Origin: Methylacidiphilales bacterium
Lineage (GTDB): Bacteria; Verrucomicrobiota; Verrucomicrobiia; Methylacidiphilales; UBA1321
Reading direction: 5' to 3'
Assembly (NCBI GenBank): GCA_021272165.1
Contig: JAJSLK010000061.1
Span: forward strand, 62,001-126,000
DNA length: 64,000 nt
Part shown: piece by piece, positions 26,088-29,688 of the stretch
How the letters are laid out: each line of letters opens with the position of its first letter
Numbering within the stretch: position 1 is the stretch's first letter
The notes under the pieces: model-generated
What the model was told of the DNA's origin: nothing
Databases searched by the model: none
What the model saw: only the letters and a program-made list of their open reading frames with translations
Made by a program: the position numbers and the translations under genes

Positions 26088-26732
26088 ATGCCCCGCAAAT
26101 CTCCCGCTGACGATTTTCCCGAAGCCCAGGAATTGCTGCCTTCGGACCCTCCGGTCGACGCCACTTCAACGGCCAACGAGATCAATCTCAAGGTCCAGCG
26201 GGTTGAGGAGCAGTTGCTCGATCTCAAGCGGCAGCAGGAGGAGATCGAACGGCAAAAGCGCGAACTCGACGACCTCAGTCGCAAGCAGCGCGAGTTTGAC
26301 GAAGGCCGTCGCGACATCGTGGAAAAGCTGACCCGCGGCCTGGTCCTGCTCGAGCGCGAGGAATTTGAGGTCAAACGGGAGCTGGAGCAAATCCGAATTG
26401 TCCGCGACAGCTTTGCCGAGCACCTTGGCCAGACGGAAAATATTAATCCGGCCGATTGGACCAGCGAGGAGCTCCCGACCGAGCTGACCAAGGCGCTCGC
26501 CCGCGTCGACCAGGCCAAGGCGATCTACAGCCAGTCCCGGGCGCGGCTTCTGGCGCTCCGCCAATCGGAAGAAGGGGAGACCGAGGAAATTTCGTCCGAT
26601 CTGGATACGGAGCCGGCCTCGAATGAAAAACCGTTCGGCGCCATGGTGCGCGAAGGGTTCGCCTATTCCGCGCTGCCGCTGGGTCTCATCAGTATTTTTC
26701 TGCTGCTCGCTTATCTTGTCCTTCACCATTGA
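26088..26732 (+). CDS. Coiled-coil protein with C-terminal membrane anchor
   Basis: 214 residues. Residues about 27-120 are a strongly heptad-like coiled coil (LLDLKRQQEEIERQKRELDDLSRKQREFDEGRR). A C-terminal hydrophobic segment (SALPLGLISIFLLLAYLVL) anchors it as a tail-anchored or bitopic protein. It starts 9 bp after the LysM gene and so is cotranscribed. The function is unknown; a structural or scaffold role is inferred from composition only. Confidence 0.72.
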   Translation: MPRKSPADDFPEAQELLPSDPPVDATSTANEINLKVQRVEEQLLDLKRQQEEIERQKRELDDLSRKQREFDEGRRDIVEKLTRGLVLLEREEFEVKRELEQIRIVRDSFAEHLGQTENINPADWTSEELPTELTKALARVDQAKAIYSQSRARLLALRQSEEGETEEISSDLDTEPASNEKPFGAMVREGFAYSALPLGLISIFLLLAYLVLHH

Positions 26733-26768
26733 TTCGGTTTAACCTCGGCGCTTCTCCCCTTCGCCTTC

Positions 26769-27125
26769 ATGCCGTGGCATCGCAATGACCATGATCCAGT
26801 AGAGGCCCTTCGCCGTCAGTTGGCGGAAAAGGAGCGGCTCATTTCCCAGCAGATGTCGCGGCTGAACGAGGAACTGCACCAGTCCGGCGAAGCGCCTCCC
26901 GTCGAGATCAAGCCGCCGGAGCCGCCCGTCTGGCGCCTGGAGGAGGAGGGACATTCCACCGTCCGCCCGGTCGACCCAACGCCCTCACGCAAGCGCCATC
27001 TGGCCCGCCAGACCCAGCGCGATATGATCGTCTTTTTCATTTGCGTTGGAGTATTCATCGTCGTTTTGCTTCTTTTCCTCTGGGTGGCCTATGTCCGCAA
27101 TACGGCGCTTAACAACGGCGCATAA
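26769..27125 (+). CDS. Small protein with coiled coil and C-terminal membrane segment
   Basis: 118 residues. A short coiled coil (ALRRQLAEKERLISQQMSRLNEEL) precedes a Pro-rich, basic stretch and the C-terminal membrane segment MIVFFICVGVFIVVLLLFLWVAYV. Same layout as the preceding gene, 36 bp away, so the two may be a related pair of membrane-anchored coiled-coil proteins. No family recognised. Confidence 0.65.
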   Translation: MPWHRNDHDPVEALRRQLAEKERLISQQMSRLNEELHQSGEAPPVEIKPPEPPVWRLEEEGHSTVRPVDPTPSRKRHLARQTQRDMIVFFICVGVFIVVLLLFLWVAYVRNTALNNGA

Positions 27126-27163
27126 ATCGTTCCGAAACGGCATCCGGTAAAAATTGCTGAATG

Positions 27164-27203
27164 TGCAAGCAGCTTGCAAAAAATAATTGCAAATAGGTTG
27201 CAT
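27164..27203. promoter_or_regulatory. TTGCA-rich operator-like region of the metal importer
   Basis: A perfect 15-bp palindrome (arms TGCAAGC and GCTTGCA around A, 27164-27178) is followed by two further TTGCAA/TTGCAT hexamers at 27187 and 27198. The hexamers begin 13 and 11 bp apart. The array ends 20 bp before the importer's first start codon. This is the layout of a metal-repressor operator, but which regulator (Zur, MntR, Mur type) is unknown. Confidence 0.55.
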
Positions 27204-27222
27204 ATCTGGCAGGCTTGGGACC

Positions 27223-28089
27223 ATGAGATTCTTATTGGCCATGGCGGCCGCTCTGACGGTCGTGGCGGGAACGACCCGGGCTGGAGAGGTTCGGATTGTG
27301 GCGGCGGAAAATTTCTACGGCGGGATCGCGCAGGCGATCGGTGGCAACGACGTGGAAGTGACGAGCATTCTGTCGAATCCGAACCAGGACCCGCATGAGT
27401 TTACGACCAGCGCATCGACGGCCAAGGCGGTGGCGGATGCCGACATCGTGATTTACAGCGGAATCGATTACGACCCGTGGGTGGACAAGCTGCTGGGGAC
27501 GGGAGGAAAGCCGGACCGGACGGTGATTTGTGTGGCGTCGTTGATCGGGGCAAAGCCGGGCGACAATCCCCACATCTGGTACGATCCGCGGACGATGCCG
27601 ACTCTGGCGGACAAGCTGGTGACGGTTCTGACGCAGCGCAATCCAGCAAAACAATTCTTCTATCAGGTGAACGCGGGCGAGTTCAAAAAGGCGATGGACC
27701 CGGTGCTGGTGAATATCGCGAGATTGAGGGCGAGCTTCCAGGGTACGGCGGTGACGGCGACCGAGCCGGTGTTCGGCTATATGGCGGACGCGCTGGGATT
27801 GAAGATGCTGAATTATGATTTTCAGGTGAAGATCATGAATGATACGGAGCCGGGAGCGGCGGAGACGGCGGCGTTCGAGCAGAGTCTGCGATCGAAGACG
27901 GCGAAGATGCTTTTTTACAACAGTCAGGTCACCGATCCGACAACGGAGCGGCTGAAGGGAATCGCGCGGGATTCGGGGATTCCAGTGATAGGAGTAACGG
28001 AGACGCAGCCGCCGGAGTACAAAAGTTATACGGACTGGATGCAGGCGGAGTTGAAGGCGGTGGAGAAGGGGATGAAGGGGGCCGACTGA
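27223..28089 (+). CDS. Metal ABC importer, substrate-binding protein
   Basis: 288 residues from ATG 27223 with a signal peptide (FLLAMAAALTVVAGTTRA). Cluster A-I (ZnuA/TroA) fold. Metal ligands read by position are His58 (NQDPHEF), His117 (DNPHIWYDP), Glu181 (TATEPVFGYMADALGL) and Glu260 (VTETQPP). ZnuA proteins usually have a third His where Glu181 stands; a Glu here is typical of Mn-binding members, so manganese is a plausible substrate, with zinc not excluded. It is the first gene of a three-gene importer. Confidence 0.92.
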   Translation: MRFLLAMAAALTVVAGTTRAGEVRIVAAENFYGGIAQAIGGNDVEVTSILSNPNQDPHEFTTSASTAKAVADADIVIYSGIDYDPWVDKLLGTGGKPDRTVICVASLIGAKPGDNPHIWYDPRTMPTLADKLVTVLTQRNPAKQFFYQVNAGEFKKAMDPVLVNIARLRASFQGTAVTATEPVFGYMADALGLKMLNYDFQVKIMNDTEPGAAETAAFEQSLRSKTAKMLFYNSQVTDPTTERLKGIARDSGIPVIGVTETQPPEYKSYTDWMQAELKAVEKGMKGAD

Positions 28090-28091
28090 TT

Positions 28092-28883
28092 ATGCCGACG
28101 GCCCTCGAGATTTCAGATCTGCATGTGACGCTGGGTGGACACAAAATCCTGGCCGGAATCAATGCGGAGATCGAGGCGGGGGAATTCATCGGGATTTTTG
28201 GTCCGAACGGGGCCGGAAAGACGACGCTGGTGCGGGCAATCCTCGGGACGCTGCGGCCGCAGGCGGGATCGGTGAAGATTTTCGGCCAGTCGCCGGGGCG
28301 GGCGTCGCGGGAGATCGGTTATCTGCCGCAGGGAAATCCGGGGCTGGAACTGACGGCGTTGAGCGCGCGGGCCGTGATCGAAGCGGCATGTGGAGGCGAG
28401 CGCTGGGGCGTGCCGTGGCCGAGTCGGGCGACGCAAGCAGAGATCGATCGGGTGCTGGAATTGACCGAAGCGGCGGCGCAGGCGGACCGGCCCTTCTCAG
28501 TGCTTTCAGGGGGGGAACGACAGCGAGTGATGCTGGCGCAGGCCTTGTTGGGCCGGCCGAAGATTCTGGTGCTGGACGAGCCGCTGGCGAGCCTTGATCC
28601 AAAGAATCAGGCGTTGTTGATTGAGCGGATCGCGGAGGTAAAGGAGCGGACCGGGACGACGGTGCTTTTCGTGGCGCACGATATGAATCCGCTGCTGCAT
28701 GTGATGGACCGCGTGCTTTATATGGCGGGGGGCGGGGCTGTGCTGGGCGAGGTGGACCGGGTGGTGAACTCGGAGTCGCTGACACGATTATACGGTTTTC
28801 CGATTGAAGTGATCCGGGCCGAGAATCGGATTTTCGTGGTTTCGAAAGAGGGGAATGTAACAGAGTCGGCGCATCATGATTAA
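28092..28883 (+). CDS. Metal ABC importer, ATPase
   Basis: 263 residues. Walker A is GPNGAGKTTL, the Q loop is in YLPQGNPG, the signature is LSGGERQRV, Walker B is ILVLDEPLAS and the switch His is in VAHDMNP. It starts 2 bp after the substrate-binding gene and overlaps the permease gene by 8 bp, so the three are one operon. It supplies energy for metal uptake at the inner membrane. Confidence 0.94.
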   Translation: MPTALEISDLHVTLGGHKILAGINAEIEAGEFIGIFGPNGAGKTTLVRAILGTLRPQAGSVKIFGQSPGRASREIGYLPQGNPGLELTALSARAVIEAACGGERWGVPWPSRATQAEIDRVLELTEAAAQADRPFSVLSGGERQRVMLAQALLGRPKILVLDEPLASLDPKNQALLIERIAEVKERTGTTVLFVAHDMNPLLHVMDRVLYMAGGGAVLGEVDRVVNSESLTRLYGFPIEVIRAENRIFVVSKEGNVTESAHHD

Positions 28884-29688
28884 TCTGCTTTTGACCTATC
28901 TGAGCTACGATTTCGTACGGGAGGCTCTGGCGGCGGGAACGCTGGCGGCGATCCTGGGGGCAATCGTGGGTTATTTTGTCGTGGTGCGAAACGTGGTGTT
29001 TGCGGCGCACGCGCTGTCGCACATTGGATACACGGGCGCGGCGGCGGCGACACTTTTCGGGCTGAATCCGCTGCTGGGAATGCTTTTCTTTACGGTGGGA
29101 GCGGGCGCGACGATGGGAGTGGCGGGCGACCGGCTGCAGAGGAGCGACATGGCCATTGGGATGGTGCTGTCGGTATCGCTGGGATTGGGGACGCTGTTCT
29201 TATGGTTGCATCAGGGCTTCGCGGGAAATGCCATGGCAATCCTGTTTGGAAATATTTTCGGAGTGTCGACGGAGCAACTGGCCGAGATGCTGGTGCTGTC
29301 GCTGCTGAGCATGGCGGGGCTGGCGCTGTTTTCGCGGAAACTGCTGTTTGCGAGCATTCAGCCGCGGCTGGCCGAGGCGCGGGGACTGTCGCTGACCGGG
29401 CTGTCGCTGGCGTTCATGGTCGTGCTGGCAATTTCGGTGACGCTGGCGAGCCAGATCGTGGGCGTTTTGCTGGTATTCACGCTGGTGATCGCGCCGGCGG
29501 GAATTGCGTTACGGTTGTGCGGATCATTCTGGCGGGGGATTTTGCTGTCGGTCTCGCTGGGAGTGACGGCGGTCTGGGCGGGAATTTTACTGGCCTGCGT
29601 AACCGACTTTCCGGTGACGTTCTGGATTACGGTAATTTTCTTTGTGACTTACGGGAGCGTGGAGGGATGGTGCCGGTGGCGGGGGTAA
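28876..29688 (+). CDS. Metal ABC importer, permease
   Basis: 270 residues with about eight membrane segments, of the ABC-3 family (ZnuB/MntB). The sequences ALAAGTLAAILGAIVGYFVVVRNVVF and AHALSHIGYTGAAAATL are typical, as is SQIVGVLLVFTLVIAPAG. It overlaps the ATPase gene. After it comes a short gap to the convergent PilT-like gene. Confidence 0.93.
   Translation: MINLLLTYLSYDFVREALAAGTLAAILGAIVGYFVVVRNVVFAAHALSHIGYTGAAAATLFGLNPLLGMLFFTVGAGATMGVAGDRLQRSDMAIGMVLSVSLGLGTLFLWLHQGFAGNAMAILFGNIFGVSTEQLAEMLVLSLLSMAGLALFSRKLLFASIQPRLAEARGLSLTGLSLAFMVVLAISVTLASQIVGVLLVFTLVIAPAGIALRLCGSFWRGILLSVSLGVTAVWAGILLACVTDFPVTFWITVIFFVTYGSVEGWCRWRG

Follow-up and report, generated by a model that had tools for sequence, protein, structure and literature searches.

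A paired palindrome before a znuA-type importer operon in a Methylacidiphilales bacterium: a probable Zur-type operator with similar sites before zinc genes in related bacteria

The array and the importer operon

Within the 64-kb window, by which we mean the whole stretch of DNA analysed, three adjacent plus-strand genes encode an ABC importer of the Znu type (Table 1). The product of the first gene, znuA, has a signal-peptide-like start, and zinc would be the cargo of the importer. Three of its four nearest homologues are titled Methylacidiphilales or Verrucomicrobia, and the rest of the close homologues bear mainly proteobacterial titles. An earlier note on this DNA placed an array of TTGCA words just upstream of the first importer gene, and this placement is correct: the array ends with a palindrome whose core stops 21 bp before the znuA start codon. 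Such a placement, with a palindromic site shortly ahead of the leading gene in a zinc-uptake-type operon, is one of the features expected of a Zur operator.

The same note described a perfect 15-bp palindrome and two further hexamers at 13- and 11-bp steps. Read from the letters of the window, TGCAAGCAGCTTGCA at 27164-27178 is indeed a perfect 7-1-7 palindrome, and TTGCA starts at 27174, 27187 and 27198, which gives the steps described. The two further hexamers are not loose, however, but are both arms of a second palindrome, TGCAAATAGGTTGCA at 27188-27202, whose form is identical to that of the first. The array, at 27163-27203, consists of the palindrome GCAA-N5-TTGC in two copies, 24 bp apart.

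Table 1. Features of the array and of the importer operon (positions in the window)
Feature	Position	Strand	Basis
Box 1, core GCAAGCAGCTTGC in the 17-mer GTGCAAGCAGCTTGCAA	core 27165..27177; 17-mer 27163-27179	.	aligned with 8 other operators
Spacer, 11 bp between cores	27178..27188	.	24 bp from the start of one core to the start of the next
Box 2, core GCAAATAGGTTGC in the 17-mer TTGCAAATAGGTTGCAT	core 27189..27201; 17-mer 27187-27203	.	palindrome, pattern counts, spacing
Metal-binding protein of ABC importer, znuA-type	27223..28089	+	Pfam PF01297, 158.9 bits
ABC importer ATPase, znuC-type	28092..28883	+	Pfam ABC_tran, 103.7 bits
ABC-3 permease, znuB-type	28876..29688	+	Pfam PF00950, 148.4 bits

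The sequence TGCAA-N5-TTGCA occurs twice in the window, both times in the array, and 100 dinucleotide shuffles of the window contained a mean of 0.08 occurrences, with none of the 100 holding two. The paired pattern with its N11 spacer has one place without mismatch in the window, and the next place has three mismatches. A chance origin of the array was rejected on the basis of the shuffles, these window counts, and the reversed-profile control described below.

A search of the whole genome (G000), which the earlier note had proposed as a check, found the exact palindrome at four places, two of them in the array. A third box precedes an OprB-family porin gene (G000:C7:75734-75748, L097; also L255 and L256) and stands before such genes in three genus genomes (G000, G002, G004), which suggests that the porin is part of the regulon. 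The fourth, a single GCAA-N5-TTGC box, precedes a gene for an HtrA-like protease (G000:C49:10359-10373, L098; also L146, L148 and L150); gene and box are kept in G002, G006 and G007, and the proteins are 82-85% identical. The porin and protease genes are further, though less certain, candidate targets, and an HtrA-like protease would be an unexpected one for a zinc repressor. Both of these boxes front genes outside the classical zinc set, which counts against reading the palindrome as a Zur site. When one mismatch is allowed, the genome holds 38 sites, as compared with 20 for a reversed control pattern, indicating that its single one-mismatch copies are mostly due to chance.

Occurrence of the motif in the genus and the class

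The paired pattern, consisting of 16 fixed bases and the N11 spacer, was searched for in 286 related genomes. Eight exact sites were present in seven of the 286, namely in five of the eight genomes of the own genus (G000, G002, G004, G006, and G005 with two) and in G166 and G201 of the same class. The exact pair precedes znuA in G000, G002, G004 and G006. The znuA operator of G007 is a paired site with one mismatch, znuA of G001 is preceded by one intact box, and that of G003 by two boxes 63 bp apart. Both exact sites of G005 front TonB-dependent receptor genes, and a TonB-dependent receptor gene lies divergently from the site in G006. The G166 site fronts a gene for a ZigA zinc-chaperone GTPase (627 bits, NCBIfam cut-off 600), and the G201 site a pseudopilin-like gene followed by one for a choice-of-anchor M protein (117.7 bits, cut-off 55). 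With up to one mismatch the paired pattern matched 38 of the 286 genomes and its reversed control 20 of the 286, so that the one-mismatch paired matches are mostly due to chance. The single exact palindrome occurs at 17 sites in the eight genus genomes, as compared with five for the control.

The distance between boxes is not fixed. Forty spacings were measured, ranging from 17 to 82 bp, and the 24-bp spacing was seen in nine of the 40, all of them the nine sites later used for training, most of which had been found with the 24-bp pattern itself. Five of the seven genus znuA operators retain the 24-bp pitch. A rigid 24-bp double site was therefore rejected as the defining unit, and the variable spacing outside the training sites suggests independent dimers. 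In three genus genomes (L139, L140, L137) a third palindrome lies 36 bp away from the pair, and the interval contains GGCTAGC or its complement.

A profile built from sequence alone, R1, was made from the nine operators of 24-bp pitch and for this reason favours that pitch. R1 matched 82 of the 286 genomes at E<=0.1, with a best E-value of 4.6e-11, whereas the profile with its columns reversed matched six of the 286, with a best of 0.020. A phylum-wide search of 387 genomes returned only two weak matches (E<=0.001) outside the class.

Among the matches listed, 37 distinct sites at E<=0.01 lay outside the training set, and 36 of these were examined, G029 being left out. Their surroundings were compared with a zinc query set comprising ZnuA, ZnuB, ZigA, ZIP, Zur, anchor-M, TonB receptor and OprB, which had been drawn in part from motif-found sites. 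A zinc-set gene was present within 1.5 kb of 19 of the 36 listed sites, of 17 of 34 once two sites matched by queries taken from themselves were removed, and of 12 of 28 when every site from the three training genera (those of G000, G166 and G201) was set aside. The corresponding figure for a hand-picked control set (22 chance matches to the paired pattern, six matches to the reversed profile, and five exact but seemingly chance palindromes) was 0 of 33. It becomes 1 of 34 with the addition of L108 (G229:C81), which was first omitted from the controls as real-looking; this one-mismatch copy of the motif has a ZnuA-type gene and may be a true site.

The neighbours of the motif include genes for ZnuA, ZIP, ZigA, TonB-dependent receptors and Fur-family proteins. 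ZnuA is found near R1 sites in G099, G243, G264, G105 and G003, and ZigA-type GTPases in G178 (together with PRA-CH), G280, G162, G123, G009 and G065. The earlier note had allowed for the outcome that no second copy of the motif would lie near metal genes; in the relatives, many copies do. One site shared by several zinc-starvation genes is thus found among the relatives, and the importer is the only clear case in the own genome. About half of the listed R1 sites at E<=0.01 are without a recognised zinc gene, and some are intragenic, for example in G024 and G035. No zinc-set gene was found within 1.5 kb at 17 of the 36 (G023:C5, G163, G234, G024, G035, G087, G229:C2, G155, G004:C15, G188, G133:C33, G092, G174, G015, G257, G191 and G158). 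In G188 a ZnuA-type gene lies somewhat beyond this range, and the other 16 sites are unclear or chance.

Two further kinds of gene were observed beside the motif. Near it, a pseudopilin-like gene is repeatedly found adjacent to one for a choice-of-anchor M-like, partly PEP-CTERM, histidine-rich exoprotein (L143, L237, L243, L246, also L241), and this pair is perhaps akin to ZepA. The proteins encoded at L258:3550-4488 and L251:2611-3522, also beside the motif, are similar by eye, each having early histidines and a start resembling a signal peptide, and neither had a Pfam match.

The Fur-family regulator

The own genome contains one Fur-family gene, on the minus strand at G000:C53:13506-14000, outside the window, and each of the eight genus genomes has one, the proteins of the genus relatives being 67-82% identical to that of G000. 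In the genus member G001, downstream of the operator come znuA, znuC and znuB and then that genome's only Fur-family gene, whose product is 68% identical to the own-genome protein over 136 residues. The same order of motif, znuA, znuC, znuB and Fur-family gene is present in G245 and G105, which belong to other families of the class. The motif is followed by a TonB receptor gene and then a Fur-family gene in G206, and by a ZIP transporter gene (71.9 bits) and then a Fur-family gene in G133, both likewise of other families. The motif and a ZIP gene (96.8 bits) flank a distant Fur-family gene in G016, and a Fur-family gene is divergent from the motif in G228. The R1 E-values of these seven Fur-linked sites range from 0.0007 to 0.037. 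We estimate, roughly and by no formal test, that about 0.5 coincidences of Fur-family gene and motif would be expected, as compared with the seven genomes seen; the inputs were about 160 listed R1 matches, two Fur matches per genome, a 6-kb window and a genome of about 4 Mb. Thus, the Fur-family gene expected to accompany a Zur operator is present, linked to the motif in G001 and six other genomes and unlinked in the own genome.

In a phylogenetic tree, a branch with support of 100/100 parts the genus and motif-linked proteins from Fur-type paralogues of G008, G009 and G011, although, according to a warning from the tree program, the split separating these paralogues is one at which long branches come together; the positions of the G016 and G228 proteins are unsure. 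The own Fur-family protein scores 25.6 bits against the NCBIfam Zur model NF008646, below its cut-off of 167. Its best NCBIfam model is Bacillus Fur, at 85.6 bits and below the cut-off of 220, and it passes no curated cut-off. The nearest solved sequences are the ferric uptake regulators 6d57 and 4ets, followed by FurB/Zur 2o03. Since the curated models leave the protein unnamed, the assignment to zinc rests on the genes tied to the motif and not on the sequence of the regulator. Three residues before the first CxxC, all eight genus proteins and four of 33 others compared carry a tyrosine, whereas 29 of the 41 proteins compared have a histidine there, suggesting that the sensory or metal site of the genus protein may be unusual or shifted.

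The own genome also has two genes of the DtxR family. One of these (G000:C2:98-277, L173) has an Nramp-family gene (68.4 bits) nearby, and this locus is likely to be a separate manganese or iron unit.

Comparison with known operators and interpretation

The array resembles the Zur boxes of Escherichia coli znuABC, Streptomyces coelicolor znuA and Bacillus subtilis yciC in being palindromic and in its association with a Fur-family regulator. Additionally, as with those boxes, its sites precede genes for Znu-type importers, COG0523 proteins, ZIP transporters and TonB-dependent receptors. A doubling of the box within a single promoter is reported, in the available part of one source, for both S. 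coelicolor znuA and B. subtilis yciC (PMC6103462). The letters differ, GCAA-N5-TTGC standing here against the GTTAT-type box, which was the one type of Zur box used for the comparison. Among 69 non-verrucomicrobial loci, these being ZnuA-homologue importer loci with enough upstream sequence, a GTTAT-type box with up to two mismatches lies upstream of 53, with 2.9 expected, and the exact GCAA-N5-TTGC of one, with 0.5 expected. Nine verrucomicrobial importer loci gave the opposite picture, with the GTTAT-type box (up to two mismatches) at none of the nine and the exact GCAA-N5-TTGC at five of the nine, four of these five being contigs of the genus genomes G003, G004, G006 and G007 and so not independent of the paired-pattern count. 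One of the four, L002, carries a Bacteroidetes title and was grouped with the verrucomicrobial loci. Because the counts for the GTTAT-type box differ in this way, the operator over the same kind of importer appears to differ between the two groups. A further counterpart is the zepA site of Luteolibacter yonseiensis. According to the accessible portion of its report, one predicted Zur palindrome, likened to clostridial sites, precedes zepA, and in the PVC superphylum zepA has Fur-family genes close by (PMC10957091). Compared by these descriptions only, the two cases share a verrucomicrobial or PVC species, a palindrome, a zinc exoprotein gene and a Fur-family gene.

In its letters the array matches a nickel operator. 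The S. coelicolor Nur box, given as tTGCaa-N5-ttGCAA in the portion available of its publication (PMC3919588), has the same half-site and the same N5 centre, and each of the two copies fits it at 11 of 12 positions, so the earlier note, which could not match the array to a well-known Zur, MntR or Mur motif, needs amending. Nur is described, in the excerpt at hand, as a nickel sensor controlling nikABCDE and sodF/sodN (PMC7055735). It is this fit that favours a Nur-type operator, at which the Fur-family protein would sense nickel and the importer would bring nickel in. We nevertheless consider this very unlikely. The genes under the motif are of zinc type (ZIP, ZigA, PRA-CH beside ZigA, and ZnuA), and the boxes are often paired; among the neighbours read by eye, no nik operon and no sodF or sodN was noticed. 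Furthermore, the zinc-type box is found at most of the importer's proteobacterial relatives. As the linked genes are of zinc type, the site seems to function as a Zur box does, though it is spelled like a Nur box.

It is similarly improbable that the array is a manganese or iron operator to which one of the genome's two DtxR-family proteins, or the Fur-family protein in the role of Mur, would bind. The half-sites of the alphaproteobacterial Mur/Fur box are TGCA-like, the genome does hold two DtxR-family genes, and ZnuA-family proteins also serve manganese, the second-best NCBIfam model being a manganese one, though far below its cut-off. One of the DtxR genes, however, adjoins the Nramp gene, suggesting that manganese is handled at that locus. 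In seven genomes it is Fur-family genes, which were the ones looked for, that adjoin the motif, and ZIP and ZigA point to zinc. That the repeats are promoter elements or leader RNA hairpins with no repressor involved is scarcely credible: TTGCAA is like a -35 hexamer and GCAAGCAGCTTGC could pair in RNA, but a sigma-70 promoter array was rejected after no sigma-70-like promoter (and no terminator) was found at 26700-27400, an RNA element was rejected after no Rfam match up to E=1 was found at 26600-27800, in G006 and G003 the array separates divergent genes, which fits a DNA site with strand symmetry, and a general promoter element would not pick out zinc genes as the motif does.

The conservation of the palindromes, the sharing of the motif by zinc-type genes, and the co-location of Fur-family genes in relatives argue for an operator. 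The earlier view of the array as a metal-repressor operator gains support from its retention before znuA in the genus, its occurrence before zinc-type genes in other families, and its linkage to Fur-family genes. On this sequence evidence, the array is very probably a tandem Zur-type operator read by the single Fur-family protein of the genome. Each GCAA-N5-TTGC palindrome would be the site of one dimer of this protein, acting as Zur. In its zinc-bound form, two dimers would occupy the promoter and start region of znuA-znuC-znuB next to each other and prevent transcription; under zinc shortage they would lose their metal and leave, and the importer would be made. We infer from the comparative data that the Fur-family protein binds the site, that zinc is its ligand, that the sign of regulation is repression, and that the two dimers are independent.

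Similar sites lie before zinc genes in related bacteria, and the box is probably a new, class-level variant of the Zur operator. A literature search, which extended to subscription papers in small part, found no description of the motif for zinc or for Verrucomicrobia. Zinc control in Verrucomicrobia seems to be little described, the group being unmentioned in the available parts of two Zur reviews and of the COG0523 survey.

On a wider interpretation we are evenly divided. The class may use a Zur box of the type of the nickel sensor Nur, one DNA word being read for different metals in different phyla. The genus may have lost a classical Fur and kept a single Fur-family protein in which the histidine cluster is altered, its regulon having grown to include the OprB porin and the HtrA-like protease, and the importer gene set may have been wired to two different Zur boxes, GTTAT-type in proteobacterial relatives and TTGCAA-type here.

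The presence of the motif in several families of the class, together with a named candidate regulator, provides a directly testable regulon, and the motif can guide the annotation of zinc genes in uncultured representatives of the class. A nickel-type Fur-family DNA word that seemingly serves zinc is also a case for examining how, in Fur-family proteins, specificity for DNA is separated from specificity for the metal. Finally, a rule for zinc control in these little-studied bacteria is now testable.
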